Below, one piece after another: positions 54,960-61,276 of a stretch of 64,000 nt of DNA. Both the position numbers and the translations under genes were made by a program. How positions within the stretch are numbered: position 1 is the stretch's first letter; each line of letters starts with the position of its first letter. The DNA comes from Halobellus sp. MBLA0158 (GTDB lineage Archaea; Halobacteriota; Halobacteria; Halobacteriales; Haloferacaceae): contig NZ_JBGNYA010000001.1 of NCBI RefSeq assembly GCF_041477585.1, positions 992,001-1,056,000 on the forward strand, read 5' to 3'. The notes beneath the pieces were generated by a model, which worked only from the letters and a program-made list of their open reading frames with translations, was not told the origin of the DNA and made no database searches.

Positions 54960-55994
54960 CTACCAGGTGCCGTGGAAGGTGTCGAACGAGAGCGAATCGA
55001 GCGGCTCGTCGCCGACGGCGATCCGGTACTCCCCGGGCGTCAGCATCGGCTTGTGGAACTGCGGGCCGTCGTCGGTCGTGATCCGCGGACAGCCCGTGTT
55101 GACGAACGCGTCCATGTCGAAGTTTCGCAGTCGATCGGGCGTCACCTCGTCCATCGTGATGAGGTAGGCGTCGTCGTTGTCCTCGATGATCTCCTCGGCG
55201 ATCTCCATCCGGCCCTGACCGATCTTCGTGCAGAAGATGACGCCCCACTTCTCGGCGTCCATCGCGCGGTGGACGGCCCCGTAGCGCTGCTTCATGAACT
55301 TCTCCGTGTCGGCGACGGTCACGACGTTGTTGACGGGGTCGGCGATCAGCACCTTCTTTTCGGGGTGCTCCATCGCGAGGCCGAGCGGGTGGAACTTCCC
55401 GCCGCCGACGTAGAGCACCTGGTCGGCGTCGATGTCGGCCGACGCGTAGTTGCAGCCGAGCACCTGGCCCTCGTAGGTCAGGCGATCGTCGCCGCGACGG
55501 GTGTGGACGTCGTAGCCGCGCTCTTCGAGCCACGCGACCATCTCGTCGAAGCGGTTCATGTGCTGGGCGGTCGTGACGAGGCCGACCTCCTCGTCGGGGA
55601 GTTCGTCGACGGCCTCTTCGAGGATCGGGAACGGGTCGACGTTCGAGAAGAGAGGGACGTAGATGATCTTGTCCGACTCCTTCATCGGGGAGTGACCGAA
55701 GTGGACGAAGACGTCGGTGCGGCGCATCAGGTAGGTGTCGAGGTCGCAGGCGCCGTAGCAGGGCTGGCCCGACAGCATAAACGTCACGTCGTCGTCGCAC
55801 AGTTCCCGGAGGTCGTCGGCGACGGCCGGGCCGCGGCGCTTCAGCCCCTCGGGGAACTGCAATCCGACGCGGCTAGCGTCGCGCTCTTCGATCTCCTCGA
55901 CGATGCGGTCGAGTTCGTAGTCCCACTCCCGGTCGTGCTTCAGCGACATCCCGGTGTTTCGGAGGTCTCCCTCGGTGGCGGCGTCCTGGCTCAT
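54960..55994 (-). CDS. dph2: Diphthamide biosynthesis enzyme Dph2
   Basis: 344-aa radical-type 4Fe-4S SAM enzyme transferring the 3-amino-3-carboxypropyl group to EF-2 His. The first cluster Cys is in SGQPCYGACD (about 79/83), the second in LGCNYAS and the third in NTGCPRI. ASRVGLQFPEGLKRRGPAVA is the family start. I chose ATG 55994. Dph6 is far upstream in the window (20106); Dph5 is not seen. Confidence 0.93.
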   Translation of the reverse strand: MSQDAATEGDLRNTGMSLKHDREWDYELDRIVEEIEERDASRVGLQFPEGLKRRGPAVADDLRELCDDDVTFMLSGQPCYGACDLDTYLMRRTDVFVHFGHSPMKESDKIIYVPLFSNVDPFPILEEAVDELPDEEVGLVTTAQHMNRFDEMVAWLEERGYDVHTRRGDDRLTYEGQVLGCNYASADIDADQVLYVGGGKFHPLGLAMEHPEKKVLIADPVNNVVTVADTEKFMKQRYGAVHRAMDAEKWGVIFCTKIGQGRMEIAEEIIEDNDDAYLITMDEVTPDRLRNFDMDAFVNTGCPRITTDDGPQFHKPMLTPGEYRIAVGDEPLDSLSFDTFHGTW

Positions 55995-56156
55995 TGCACC
56001 GCCGTAGCCCGCCGACGCCAATAACCTCGGCGGTTCCGCAATCGGAGGAAAACGACCGTGAACGTCCGGTTCGGTCGCCTCCTCGACCCGGGGCGAGCCC
56101 CGGCCGCGGCCGCGCCGTCCGGTAGCTTGAAACGCGCCGCGCCCTCAGGTGCGAGT
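55995..56156. promoter_or_regulatory. Divergent promoter region between dph2 and YlbF-like gene
   Basis: 162 bases of GC-rich DNA. The reading frame 5' of the YlbF-like gene is open to 56058 but has no family features. No clear TATA box; GTAGCTTGAAACG (56123-56135) is the most AT-rich spot and about 22-34 nt before ATG 56157. Confidence 0.35.
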
Positions 56157-56531
56157 ATGAGCGTCCAGACGGACAAGCTCGAAGAGCTCGGTCGGGAACT
56201 CGGCGACGCCATCGCCGAGACGCCGGAGTACCAGGCGTTCGAGGAGGCGAAGGCGGCCGTCGAGGCCGACGACGAGGTCCAGGCGCAGATCTCGGAGTTC
56301 CGCGAGCTCCGCGATCAGTATATGCAGGCCCGACAGATGGGTCAGGCGAGCGAGGAGTCCCTGCAGAAGGTCCAGGAGGCCCAGGAGGAGCTCCACGCGA
56401 TGCCGAAGATGGCGGAGTACGTCGACGCCCAGGAGGAACTCCAGGACCGCCTGGAGGCCGTCAACGAGGCCATCTCCGCGCCCCTCGACGTCGACTTCGG
56501 CGGCGAGGCCGGCGGCTGCTGTCACGACTGA
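56157..56531 (+). CDS. YlbF-family (Com_YlbF) helical protein
   Basis: 124-aa all-helical protein. TDKLEELGRELGDAIAETPE, then YQAFEEAKAAVEADDEVQAQ and EFRELRDQYMQARQMGQASE fit the YlbF/YmcA domain, which in Bacillus helps RNase Y. The C-terminus is a Gly/Cys motif GGEAGGCCHD that could bind metal or a cluster. In archaea the partner is unknown. ATG 56157 gives the family start. Confidence 0.85.
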   Translation: MSVQTDKLEELGRELGDAIAETPEYQAFEEAKAAVEADDEVQAQISEFRELRDQYMQARQMGQASEESLQKVQEAQEELHAMPKMAEYVDAQEELQDRLEAVNEAISAPLDVDFGGEAGGCCHD

Positions 56532-56610
56532 CCGGCCGTCGCCCGCTCGTCCGTCCGTTTCTCGCGGCGCCCGCCGAGGATTTATATACGAGACCGGGGC
56601 CAGGAGCGGT

Positions 56611-57207
56611 ATGCTCGCGATCGCCGGCGGCAAGGGAGGAAGCGGGAAGACGACCACGACGCTCGGGCTGGCCCGCGCCCTCGACGGCCCCGCCCTCGCC
56701 GTCGACGCCGACTGCGACCTCCCGAACCTCCACTCGCTCGCCGGCGTCCCGCGGGACCCGCCCGGCGGAAGCCCCGGCCATCCAGACCCCGACGGCCGGG
56801 AGACGCTGATCCGACCGGCGCCGCGGAACGCGCCCGACGGTATCGGGAACCGGCTCCGACGCCTGGCCGACTTCGGCGGCCGCGTGCTCGTCGACTGCCC
56901 CGCGGGCGCCGGCCCCGACGCCGCCGTACCGCTCCGGGTCGCGGACGCGGTCCTCCTCGTCGCCACGCCCTGCGTGCCGGCGCTGCGCGACGCCGCGAAG
57001 ACGGCGGCGATGGCCCGCGCGCTCGGCACTCGCGTCGTCGGCGCGGTGCTTGTCCGCGCCCGCATCGAGCCGCCCGGCGTCGCCGACCTGCTCGGCTGTC
57101 CCGTGCTCGCGACGGTGCCGCCCGCGGCGACGCCGCTCGAATCCCCGGCCGTCAGCCGCGCGTACGACGGTCTCGCCCGCTCCCTCCCGGATCGACAGAA
57201 AGCCTAA
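56611..57207 (+). CDS. MinD/ParA-like deviant Walker ATPase (short)
   Basis: 198-aa SIMIBI ATPase. Deviant Walker A is GGKGGSGKTTTTLGLA (about 6-21), switch I AVDADCDLPNLHSL (about 31-44), and switch II VLVDCPAGAGPDAAVPLRVA (about 92-111). True MinD has about 260 aa and a C-terminal membrane helix; here it ends DGLARSLPDRQKA without an obvious one. TTTATATACGAG at 56580-56591 is a TATA box 20-31 nt upstream. The RecA-like gene starts 24 bases after its stop. Confidence 0.85.
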   Translation: MLAIAGGKGGSGKTTTTLGLARALDGPALAVDADCDLPNLHSLAGVPRDPPGGSPGHPDPDGRETLIRPAPRNAPDGIGNRLRRLADFGGRVLVDCPAGAGPDAAVPLRVADAVLLVATPCVPALRDAAKTAAMARALGTRVVGAVLVRARIEPPGVADLLGCPVLATVPPAATPLESPAVSRAYDGLARSLPDRQKA

Positions 57208-57231
57208 GCCCGTCGCCTTCGTACCCCCGCT

Positions 57232-57858
57232 GTGGCATCACGGCTCTCGACCGGCGTCAGCGTCCTCGATCGCCAACTCGACGGGGGGATCCCGCCGGGG
57301 AGCATCGTGCTCCTCGCGGCGGACCCCGCCAGCCAGTCGGAGCTGTTCCTCTACGAACTGACCGCGGTCCGCGCGACGCTGTACCTCACGACGATCCGCT
57401 CGGACCAGGCCGTCCGCGACGCCCTCGATCGGATGCCGGGCCACGTCGGCGACCCGACGATCCGTGACGTCGGCGGCAACGCGCCGCTGGACACGGCGAA
57501 CCGCTTCGTCCGCGACCTCCCGGAGGGTGCGAACCTCGTCATCGACGTCGTCGACGCGCTCGAAGAGCCCGAGCCCGCGCGCTACCGGCAGTTCCTCAAC
57601 GAACTCCAGACGCATATGGTCAACACCGGCGGGCTGGCCGTCCTCCACGGGATGAAGCGCGACGAGGAGTCGGCGAACCGCGGCTACACGGAGCACATGG
57701 CCGACGTCGTGTTCGACCTCCGCACCGACGTCAAGGGCTCGGAGATCGAGAACCGCCTCGCGATCCCGAAGTTCCGCGGCGGCACTCCGCCGACCGAGAC
57801 GATCAAGCTCCAGCTCAGCGAGCGCGTCGCGGTCGACACGAGCCGGGACATCGCCTGA
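57232..57858 (+). CDS. RecA/KaiC-superfamily-like protein without a P-loop (HTR-like)
   Basis: 208-aa protein with the RecA/KaiC beginning, LSTGVSVLDRQLDGGIPPGS (about 4-23), but the P-loop position reads LLAADPASQSELFLYELTAV instead of GxxGxGKT. Further RecA-like elements: LPEGANLVIDVVDALEEPEP with Walker B-like acids and NTGGLAVLHGM. Proteins of this sort are called HTR-like in haloarchaea (recollection). It probably binds a partner rather than hydrolysing ATP. The start is GTG 57232, close behind the MinD-like gene. Confidence 0.78.
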   Translation: MASRLSTGVSVLDRQLDGGIPPGSIVLLAADPASQSELFLYELTAVRATLYLTTIRSDQAVRDALDRMPGHVGDPTIRDVGGNAPLDTANRFVRDLPEGANLVIDVVDALEEPEPARYRQFLNELQTHMVNTGGLAVLHGMKRDEESANRGYTEHMADVVFDLRTDVKGSEIENRLAIPKFRGGTPPTETIKLQLSERVAVDTSRDIA

Positions 57859-57892
57859 GCTTCCTTTTCCTTCCCCTCGGCGACGTACTCCG

Positions 57893-58198
57893 TCACCCGA
57901 CGAAGCCGAAGTACGCGAACGCGGCGAGCGTGACGGCGACCGTCAGCGCAGACCAGGTCCGCGGGGTGTCGAGGCCGCCGAGGTCGAGCCGGCTCGTGAA
58001 GAGCGAGAGGAAGTAGGGGCCGAGCGGGACCAGCCGCCAGACGAAGGGGATCTCCCGACCCAGGCCGTACCGGAGCCCGAGCGTCAGCGCGATCGTACAG
58101 GCCGCGGCGACGGCCGCGACCCGCAGGTCCTGCGTGCCGGCGAGCGCCTCCTCGGGGAGGTCGGCGGTGTCGTCCGCGTCGGCGGTGTCGTCGGCCAT
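57893..58198 (-). CDS. Small membrane protein
   Basis: 101-aa protein. The first 25 residues are acidic (ADDTADADDTADLPEE). Three hydrophobic segments follow: LRVAAVAAACTIALTLGLRY, VPLGPYFLSLF and SALTVAVTLAAFAYFGFVG. Unknown family. It is convergent with the RecA-like gene and upstream, by 50 bp, of the FKBP gene on the same strand. Confidence 0.7.
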   Translation of the reverse strand: MADDTADADDTADLPEEALAGTQDLRVAAVAAACTIALTLGLRYGLGREIPFVWRLVPLGPYFLSLFTSRLDLGGLDTPRTWSALTVAVTLAAFAYFGFVG

Positions 58199-58248
58199 CT
58201 AGATCCTCGCTCTGTCTGTCAAAACTCGAAAAAAGCGTCTGCGACGCG

Positions 58249-59268
58249 TTACTCGTCGATGTCGACGTCTTCGAGCTCTTCGGCGAGTTCGTCGGCGTCG
58301 ACGTCGACGTCCTCGATCGCCTCTTCGATGTCCTCGGGAGCCGCGCCGCCGGGGCCGCCGGCGCCGCCCATCATCCCGCCGAGGCCGCCCATCATTCCGC
58401 CCATCCCGTCGATGGTCTCCTGGACGATGACCCGATCGAGGTCGAGCCGGTCCATCACGTCCTGGGCGATCTGCTGCTTGGAGAACATCCACTGCTGATT
58501 CATCGTCATCTGCGGCGTGGCCTCGATGTACAGCGTCTCCTTTTCGACCTCGACGGTCTCGGTTTCGAGTTCGCCGTCGTCGTCTTCGGCGTCCGCCTCG
58601 TCCTCGTCGGGCTCGACGACCTGCTCTTCTTCGACCGTGTCGGTCTCGATCCAGACCTCGGGGGCCTGCTGGAGGTACATCTCCAGCATGCTCGCGGCCT
58701 GCTCCTCGCGGTCGTCGACGATCTCGAGGATCTCGTACTCGTATTCGAGGTCCTCGCCCGCGAGCGGGTGATTGAAGTCGACGCGGGCGCGGCCGCCGAC
58801 CATCGTGATGACCTGGCCCTGGTCGCCGTCGATCTGGACCTGGGCGCCGGGGTAGCGGTCGTCCTCGTCGATCTTGTTGGCGCTGACGGTGCGGACCTGC
58901 TCGTCGTCGTACTCGCCGAACGCCTCGGCGGCGGGGATGTCGACGGTGCCGGTGTCGCCCACTTCGCCGCCGACGAGCGCGTCGTCGACGCTCTCGAAGA
59001 CGTGGCCGGCGCCGACCACGATCACGCGGGGCTCGAAGTCGTACTCCTCGGTGTCGATGTCGGCCTCCTCGGCGGTCTCCTCGTCGGTGGTGTCGACGAC
59101 GGTGCCGTCGTCCTTCGTTCGGAGCGTGTAGGCCAGACGGACGAAGTCGTCCTCCTGGATGGCATCCTCGGGGACGTCCGCGACGTCCTCCTCGACGTCT
59201 CCCCCTTCGGCGGGAGCGTCGGCGTCTGCCTGCGATTCGGCGGCGTCCGCCTGCTGTTCGTCACTCAT
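58249..59268 (-). CDS. FKBP-type peptidyl-prolyl isomerase (long, SlyD-related)
   Basis: 339-aa cytoplasmic chaperone. The FKBP core (about residues 35-190) has FVRLAYTLRTKDDGTVVDTT, VIVVGAGHVFESVDDALVGG and, in the IF-type insertion, PAAEAFGEYDDEQVRTVSAN and RARVDFNHPLAGEDLEYEYE. That is the SlyD/archaeal 26-kDa type. A further acidic and helical domain follows, and a Gly/Met-rich stretch (GGMMGGLGGMMGGAGGPGG) before an acidic end. The first 30 residues are acidic. ATG 59268. Confidence 0.9.
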   Translation of the reverse strand: MSDEQQADAAESQADADAPAEGGDVEEDVADVPEDAIQEDDFVRLAYTLRTKDDGTVVDTTDEETAEEADIDTEEYDFEPRVIVVGAGHVFESVDDALVGGEVGDTGTVDIPAAEAFGEYDDEQVRTVSANKIDEDDRYPGAQVQIDGDQGQVITMVGGRARVDFNHPLAGEDLEYEYEILEIVDDREEQAASMLEMYLQQAPEVWIETDTVEEEQVVEPDEDEADAEDDDGELETETVEVEKETLYIEATPQMTMNQQWMFSKQQIAQDVMDRLDLDRVIVQETIDGMGGMMGGLGGMMGGAGGPGGAAPEDIEEAIEDVDVDADELAEELEDVDIDE

Positions 59269-59402
59269 ACGCTGATCATCTCCCGTGTGACCCTTAAGAA
59301 TCACGTTTCGGCCCCGAGACGTCCAGAATTCGCCGTCCGTCGATATCGACCATCTCGGCCCCGAAGCGGACGGCTTTTGGCGGTTCCGTTCGACCCGCCG
59401 GT

Positions 59403-59978
59403 ATGTACGAGGTCGAGGTCAAACTGCGGGCCGCCCACGACGCCGTCCGCCCGGCGCTCGACGACGCGGGCGCCGAGCGCGTCGGCGGCGTGACCCAGGT
59501 GGACACCTACTACGACGCGCCGCACCGAGACTTCGCCGAGACGGACGAGGCGCTGCGGGTCCGGGAGGAACGCCCCGCCGACTCCGCGGCGGACGGGGAA
59601 GCGGACGCAGACGCGAGCGCGACGACGAAAGTCACGTACAAGGGCCCGCTCGTCGACGCCGACTCGAAGACCCGCGAGGAACGCGAGACTGGCGTCGACG
59701 ACGCCGACGCCGCACGAGGTGTCTTCGAGGGCCTCGGCTTCGAGCCCGCCGCGGTCGTCGAGAAGCACCGGACGTTCTTCGAGGTGGACGGCTACACCGT
59801 CACGCTCGACCGCGTCGCGGACCTCGGCGAGTTCGTCGAGGTGGAGGCCGAAGCCGAGCGCGAGGCCGACGTCGACGCGGTCAGGGAGGGCGCGTTCGAC
59901 GTCCTCCGACGGCTCGGTCTCGACCCCGACGACCAGATCCGGACCTCCTATCTGGGGCTGCTGCTCAACGAGGAATAA
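59403..59978 (+). CDS. CYTH-domain protein (class IV adenylate cyclase, CyaB-like)
   Basis: 191-aa protein. YEVEVKLRA (about 2-10) is the E-x-E-x-K metal motif of CYTH proteins. VDTYYDAPHRDFAETDEALR (about 35-54) and TLDRVADLGEFVEVE (about 140-154) fit CyaB/TIGR00318. It may hydrolyse triphosphates or make cAMP, which has no proven role in haloarchaea. Alone, with a TATA-like GGCTTTTGGC 24-35 nt upstream. Confidence 0.87.
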   Translation: MYEVEVKLRAAHDAVRPALDDAGAERVGGVTQVDTYYDAPHRDFAETDEALRVREERPADSAADGEADADASATTKVTYKGPLVDADSKTREERETGVDDADAARGVFEGLGFEPAAVVEKHRTFFEVDGYTVTLDRVADLGEFVEVEAEAEREADVDAVREGAFDVLRRLGLDPDDQIRTSYLGLLLNEE

Positions 59979-60070
59979 GTCCTGCGCGCCAACGACATTC
60001 TCCGAGGTAATATTCCGACCAGCGAAGGTTTCCGCAAGTTATAGATCCGGGCGGGTCGAAGCCCGTGGCA

Positions 60071-61276
60071 ATGACCGAGCGGAACATCTCTATCGAGGCG
60101 GCGGACCGAACGGCCGTCGAGGACCAGACGGTCGAGATCGTCGAGCGGAAGGGCATCGGCCATCCCGACTCCATCTGCGACGGCATCGCCGAGAGCGTCT
60201 CGCGGGCGCTCTCGAACCTCTACCTGGATCGCGTCGGCAAGGTGCTCCACTACAACACCGACGAGACGCAGCTGGTCGCCGGCGAGTCCGCCCCCCAGTA
60301 CGGCGGCGGCGAGATCGTCGAGCCGATCTACATCCTGATCGTCGGGCGCGCGACGAAGTCCTACGACGGCAAGCGACTCCCCGTCGATTCGACCGCGCTC
60401 GCGGCCGCCCGCGACTACCTGAACGAGCACATCCCCGAACTGGAGGTCGGCACCGACGTGATCGTCGACGTGCGCCTCGGCGAGGGCTCGGGCGACCTCC
60501 AGGAGGTCTTCGGCGAGGAGGGCGCCGAGGTCCCGATGTCGAACGACACCTCCTTCGGCGTCGGCCACGCGCCGCTCACCGAGACCGAGGAGATCGTCCG
60601 CTCCGTCGAACGGGAGCTCAACGGGCCCTACGCCGCGGACCACCCCGAACTCGGCCCCGACGTGAAGGTGATGGGCAAACGCGAGGGCGACCACGTCGAC
60701 ATCACCGTCGCCGCGGCGATGGTCGACGCGTACCTCGACGATCTCGACGAGTACGACGACGCCGTAGAGAGCGTCCGCGAGCACGCCGCCGCGGTCGCCC
60801 GCGACCTGACAGACCGCGAGGTCGCCGTCGACGTCAACACCGCCGACGACTACGAGGAGGGCTCGGTCTACCTGACCGTCACGGGCACCAGCGCCGAGAT
60901 GGGCGACGACGGCTCCGTCGGCCGCGGCAACCGCGCCAACGGCCTGATCACGCCGAACCGCCCGATGAGTATGGAGGCGACCTCCGGGAAGAACCCCGTC
61001 AACCACATCGGCAAGATCTACAACCTCCTCTCGACCGACATCGCCGAGACCGTCGTCGACGAGGTCGACGGCATCCGCGACCTCCAGGTCCGCCTGCTCT
61101 CCCAGATCGGCCGCCCGATCGACCAGCCCCACGTCGCCGACGCGAAGGTCGTCACCGAGCCCGGCGCCGACCTCGACGCGCTCGAACCCGAGATCCGCGC
61201 CATCGTCGACGACCGCCTGGCGAACGTCTCGGACATCACCCGCCGCGTGATCGACGGCGAGCTGTCGACGTTCTGA
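60071..61276 (+). CDS. mat: Archaeal S-adenosylmethionine synthetase
   Basis: 401-aa enzyme forming SAM from methionine and ATP; archaeal type unlike bacterial Met[21 protein letters not shown] (about 24-43), [12 protein letters not shown] (about 60-71) and [20 protein letters not shown] (about 283-302) are diagnostic. ATG 60071 is used; a GTG two codons earlier also works. TTATAGATCC at about 60038-60047 is a TATA candidate. It provides SAM, used by several enzymes here. Confidence 0.96.

Follow-up and report, generated by a model that had tools for sequence, protein, structure and literature searches.

The window analyzed, a stretch of 64,000 nucleotides from Halobellus sp. MBLA0158, was found to contain two neighboring genes on the forward strand at positions 56611–57858. 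The first gene (56611–57207) encoded an ATPase of the MinD3 type (hereafter MinD3) with 198 amino acids, and this assignment was drawn from the open reading frame, the Pfam family CbiA (4e-11), a phylogenetic tree, and an AF2 model searched with Foldseek. The second gene (57232–57858) encoded a pseudo-ATPase of the KaiC/RecA fold with 208 amino acids, which was assigned to DUF7125 (PF23442) with an E-value of 2.6e-100 and 334 bits against a gathering cut-off of 29.1, and was placed by AF2/Foldseek as well. The stop codon of MinD3 ended at 57207 and DUF7125 started with a GTG codon at 57232. The two reading frames of the initial annotation, with their coordinates and their gap of 24 bases, were thus borne out, and the spacing is typical, with a median of 26 nucleotides over 65 haloarchaeal loci.

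MinD3 of the window carried MLAIAGGKGGSGKTTTT, in which the signature lysine was K8 and the P-loop lysine was K13 (GGKGGSGKTT), and the aspartate of the Walker B motif was found at D95. K8, K13, and D95 were invariant across an alignment of 21 MinD3 sequences. The protein had been described as an active-looking deviant Walker ATPase, and its MinD-type motifs were indeed found intact. It scored 76.5 bits against the NCBIfam model minD_arch, which is below the cut-off of 201.75. The AF2 model had a pLDDT of 94.4, and its best match in the PDB by Foldseek was the Pyrococcus MinD (1g3q; TM 0.85, E 1.2e-13). As to the membrane-targeting helix that MinD proper has at its C-terminus, this end of the protein was weakly conserved in the alignment of 21 sequences, and the model ended in a helix at residues 179–196. 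Several of the Halobellus MinD3 proteins (loci L007–L012) contained insertions in the inter-switch loop; the length of the protein therefore varies within the genus.

Previous studies reported that MinD2 and HVO_0596 of Haloferax are neighbors, that both are conserved in haloarchaea, and that they are predicted to interact, with no phenotype for HVO_0596 (PMC11588486). A first identification of our pair with MinD2 and HVO_0596 was rejected. The published mutations of MinD2 are K16A and D117A (PMC11621097). In Haloferax, the MinD linked to DUF7125 has K13 and either D96 or D103, and exactly K16 and D117 were found in a separate paralog of 257 amino acids; the published numbering therefore fits a paralog other than the one linked to DUF7125. 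The gene 3′ of minD2, read from the sequence, overlaps minD2, opens with MRIPRGALLRS, and has no resemblance to DUF7125. The MinD2 ortholog of the window's own genome was found at G000:C1:913780. In the tree, the window MinD clustered with the DUF7125-linked MinD of Haloferax (support 99/98), apart from MinD1, MinD2, and MinD4, which were split from this group with a support of 100/99. In two genomes of Haloferax, about 1.0–1.07 Mb separate the DUF7125-linked MinD from the locus of MinD2, and HVO_1634 and HVO_0595 are 1039 locus numbers apart. The window MinD fits an ortholog of MinD3 (HVO_1634), a placement reached by elimination and from the map position in other Haloferax rather than from the H. 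volcanii sequence. One paper of 2024 says in its introduction that no function had been described for MinD1 to MinD3; MinD2 and MinD4 were then addressed by two papers of that year (PMC11588486; PMC11621097). In the papers covered, no published function was found for DUF7125, for HVO_1635, or for MinD3, in agreement with the earlier view of the system as uncharacterized.

The AF2 model of DUF7125 showed a confident KaiC/RecA fold (pLDDT 89.2), and the nearest structures found by Foldseek were SSO2452, KaiC, ArlH/FlaH, and PH0284, with TM scores of 0.75–0.78. In the HMMER alignment, the GxPGTGKT motif of the KaiC family was replaced by AxPASQ(S/A)E. In the window this lost P-loop reads ADPASQSE (57319–57342, forward strand), aligned with GxPGTGKT of KaiC, SSO2452, and PH0284. 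The P-loop lysine was absent from all the 80 named haloarchaeal loci that were gathered, and in place of the catalytic glutamates of KaiC there was T-x-R, its arginine invariant. The reading of this gene as encoding a RecA/KaiC-like protein without a P-loop was therefore confirmed. A K-F-R-G motif was found by HMMER alignment at the position of K-x-R-G in KaiC and PH0284 (57769–57780, forward strand). The K-x-R-G motif of KaiC reaches into the ATP site of the adjoining subunit.

The last seven residues of DUF7125, DTSRDIA (57835–57855, forward strand), are predicted to be disordered (pLDDT <50). Both the K-F-R-G motif and the DTSRDIA tail were identical in 80 of the 80 named loci, a uniformity that is partly a matter of selection because the tail and the K-F-R-G region served as search patterns in the scan that gathered these loci. 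Independent whole-genome hits to DUF7125 had the same tail, except for more distant second copies with near-versions of it. Several genomes (loci L237–L241, L248, and L249) contained such a second, diverged, stand-alone DUF7125, with the tails DNSRDIA, DVSRKIA, and DESRDIV; in L248 and L249, the frame was open for more than 200 residues before the domain of the second copy and contained an acidic low-complexity stretch. The invariance of the tail, together with its predicted disorder, suggests that it may act as a docking peptide. The tail cannot serve MinD3 alone, because DUF7125 keeps DTSRDIA in genomes without MinD3. No second protein with a DTSRDIA tail was found in the window's genome, and no DUF7125 position conserved only in the presence of MinD3 was found among the named loci at the thresholds used. 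The mean column identity was 72% in DUF7125 compared with 42% in MinD3, and this stronger constraint is as expected of a core component. With H. volcanii as the positive control, 52 of 56 genomes from the order carried DUF7125, and it was missing from all 190 genomes that sampled the rest of the phylum; it is confined to the haloarchaea and near-universal there.

The pair was found together in other haloarchaea, contrary to the condition that would have refuted the initial proposal, with MinD3 directly 5′ of DUF7125 on the same strand in 65 of the 80 named loci. The remaining 15 loci contained DUF7125 without an adjoining MinD3. Among 44 relatives of high completeness, which were classified by hand, 32 contained both genes, 7 contained only DUF7125, 3 contained only MinD3, and 2 contained neither; the two genes were adjacent in 31 of the 32 genomes having both. 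The occurrence of DUF7125 without MinD3, with its tail kept, indicates that DUF7125 has a role for which MinD3 is not needed. In the co-occurrence statistics of the 44 genomes, finding one gene gave no information on the other beyond what chance would give. These statistics are uninformative since both genes are nearly universal, and the argument for pairing is therefore carried by adjacency and by fusion.

A single reading frame spanning the MinD3 and DUF7125 domains was found in one genome (G057). In another haloarchaeal family, an intact single fused frame, essentially of full length, was counted in 59 of 121 genomes, and two further genomes of the same 121 contained a fused frame with one stop. 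In all the 20 fused loci that were fetched from this family, a complete domain of the MinD3 type was joined to a DUF7125 domain by a linker of 13–14 amino acids. One more fusion was found in a genome of a further family (L236). The notion of an ATPase working with a pseudo-ATPase was thus strengthened, the pair being conserved across the haloarchaea and even fused. The fused MinD halves formed one clade within the MinD3 group (support 100/99). In the tree, the fused DUF7125 halves were placed next to the stand-alone DUF7125 proteins of that family (support 99/99), which indicates that a duplicate was fused; almost every fusion-bearing genome still has a stand-alone copy at another site. The DTSRDIA tail was missing from all the fused copies examined. 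The K and R of the K-F-R-G motif were kept in the 20 fused copies, and the G was not. In three of the 20, the MinD half read GGCGTST, with the signature lysine kept and that of the P-loop lost.

The P-loop lysine of MinD3 was kept in all the 59 named pair loci that were readable. Among 47 further pair loci it was kept in 46, and the search pattern did not match the other one. Six copies of MinD3 had no adjacent DUF7125: four came from nearly complete genomes without DUF7125, one from an incomplete genome, and one from a genome with DUF7125 elsewhere. The lysine was lost in two of the six, which belonged to different families (GTGTT and GSGRT). That the lysine can disappear where DUF7125 is not adjacent hints at a functional link, but the counts are small and 3 of the 20 fusions lost it too.

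Taken together, we propose, with a probability of roughly 0.6, that MinD3 and DUF7125 are one functional module in which an ATP-dependent switch binds and controls a pseudo-ATPase adaptor with a third partner. As a MinD/ParA-type switch, MinD3 would bind DUF7125 and control it through its own nucleotide state. DUF7125, a KaiC fold without P-loop binding of ATP, would serve as an adaptor or effector, and its invariant disordered tail would most likely dock a third protein common to the haloarchaea. The computed basis of this proposal is the conserved adjacency, the fusion with loss of the tail, the family-wide loss of the P-loop, and the conservation of the finger and the tail; from these we infer the direct binding, the control by the ATP state, and the docking function of the tail. 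Counted against the module are the genomes with DUF7125 and no MinD3, those with MinD3 and no DUF7125, the apparently separate promoter of DUF7125 described below, and the loss of the lysine in 3 of the 20 fusions.

The best of the alternatives, which we nevertheless consider unlikely, compares DUF7125 with the alpha subunit of the F1-ATPase. DUF7125 would be a ring subunit without a P-loop that lends its K-F-R-G motif in trans to an active ATPase of the KaiC family, and MinD3 would regulate the assembly of the hetero-oligomer. The match of the fold to KaiC and ArlH agrees with this, as does the alignment of the motif with K-x-R-G of KaiC and PH0284, its invariance despite the loss of the P-loop, and the persistence of its K and R in the fused copies, although the G was lost there. 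However, no co-conserved active KaiC-like gene was found beside the pair among the neighbors tested, and the motif may be retained just for folding.

The pair lies in a conserved block (54960–61276 of the window) with the genes of Dph2, YlbF, an FKBP-type isomerase, a CYTH-type protein, and SAM synthetase. The FKBP gene was near DUF7125 in 53 of the 80 named loci, also where MinD3 was missing, and the CYTH gene in 34 of 80. In genomes missing DUF7125 (loci L071, and L073 and L074 of the same genus), MinD3 adjoined the FKBP gene as though DUF7125 had been cleanly deleted. The gene just before the pair (56157–56531, forward strand) was confirmed as YlbF/Com_YlbF-like (PF06133; E 1.3e-25). Its suggested membership in the system held for only a part of the Haloferacaceae: 39 of the 80 loci, most of them from that family, had it close to the pair, and it stayed with DUF7125 in some loci without MinD3. 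The YlbF-like gene is probably outside the core device. Its protein scored 61 bits against the halo-CC-star HcsL model (cut-off 140) and is a distant relative at most.

A TATA-like element (atttatatac), taken as a consensus from the sequence, was located at 56580–56589 on the forward strand, 22–31 nucleotides 5′ of the ATG of MinD3. Over 63 named loci, the sequence before MinD3 showed an AT peak at −24 to −30, and such an element would fit leaderless haloarchaeal transcription. A second candidate element, recognized by its AT peak, was found at 57201–57208 on the same strand, 24–31 nucleotides 5′ of the GTG of DUF7125 and overlapping the stop codon of MinD3. Where MinD3 was present (65 loci), the corresponding peak lay at −27 to −35; where it was absent (15 loci), the peak lay at −27 to −31. 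DUF7125 therefore seems to be served by a conserved TATA-like promoter of its own and, because the same peak is present in loci without MinD3, it is likely to be transcribed independently, besides any read-through. Judged from these consensus elements, the idea that the pair is simply a single operon is weakened.

These observations bear on a second alternative, in which YlbF, MinD3, DUF7125, FKBP, CYTH, and SAM synthetase are only a housekeeping block, and MinD3 and DUF7125 do not interact. The recurrence of FKBP and CYTH, the TATA-like element of DUF7125, and the single loss of either gene in some lineages are in its favor; however, the fusion occurred in 59 genomes at a place other than that of the stand-alone DUF7125, and the tail was specifically lost in the fused copies. 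We rate this reading as doubtful. A further proposal, improbable as we see it, extends the module to a haloarchaea-wide switch, in which the MinD-type ATPase would control a dead KaiC-fold subunit that gives a K-x-R finger in trans to an active ring of the KaiC/RadA type and recruits cargo by its C-terminal peptide. If true, it would be a mixed MinD-KaiC machine without earlier description.

That the pair positions the archaellum or chemotaxis machinery is very unlikely: MinD4 and MinD2 of H. volcanii do position its motility machinery (PMC11588486; PMC11621097), but the quadruple minD deletion of Haloferax had no motility defect beyond that of the minD2/minD4 deletion (PMC11621097), and both genes were kept in 6 of the 11 high-quality genomes without ArlH, compared with 26 of the 33 with it. 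An archaellum-linked function was accordingly unsupported by the phylogenetic profile. A motility role of MinD3 and DUF7125 is thus unlikely, and the spatial role proposed at the outset found no support.

The preferred reading, a module of MinD3 and DUF7125, gives an orphan MinD3 a partner supported by fusion, so that its role can be tested directly in Haloferax. Since DUF7125 is near-universal in the haloarchaea, a clear hypothesis would reach a whole archaeal class, and a pseudo-ATPase that retains its finger motif after the loss of the ATP site would be instructive about the regulation of ring ATPases. MinD paralogs are abundant in haloarchaea, and a MinE-like partner has not been identified for them (PMC11621097).

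Among the known systems, MinD3 of H. volcanii (HVO_1634) is probably the same paralog, judged by elimination and map position, and H. volcanii also has DUF7125. The MinD2-HVO_0596 pair of Haloferax likewise joins a MinD paralog to a small downstream gene of undescribed function, but its MinD belongs to another clade, with K16/D117 and 257 amino acids, whereas the window protein has K13/D95 and 198 amino acids. With KaiC, ArlH, SSO2452, and PH0284, DUF7125 shares the fold and the position of the K-x-R-G motif; in contrast to them, it has no P-loop, its catalytic glutamates are replaced by T-x-R, and it is a single domain with an extra conserved tail. In bacteria, FlhG-FlhF and FleN-FleQ similarly combine a MinD-like ATPase with a partner of an NTPase fold, and FleN and FlhG were among the structural matches of MinD3. 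The partners in these systems are an SRP GTPase or an AAA+ protein rather than a KaiC fold, and they act on flagella.
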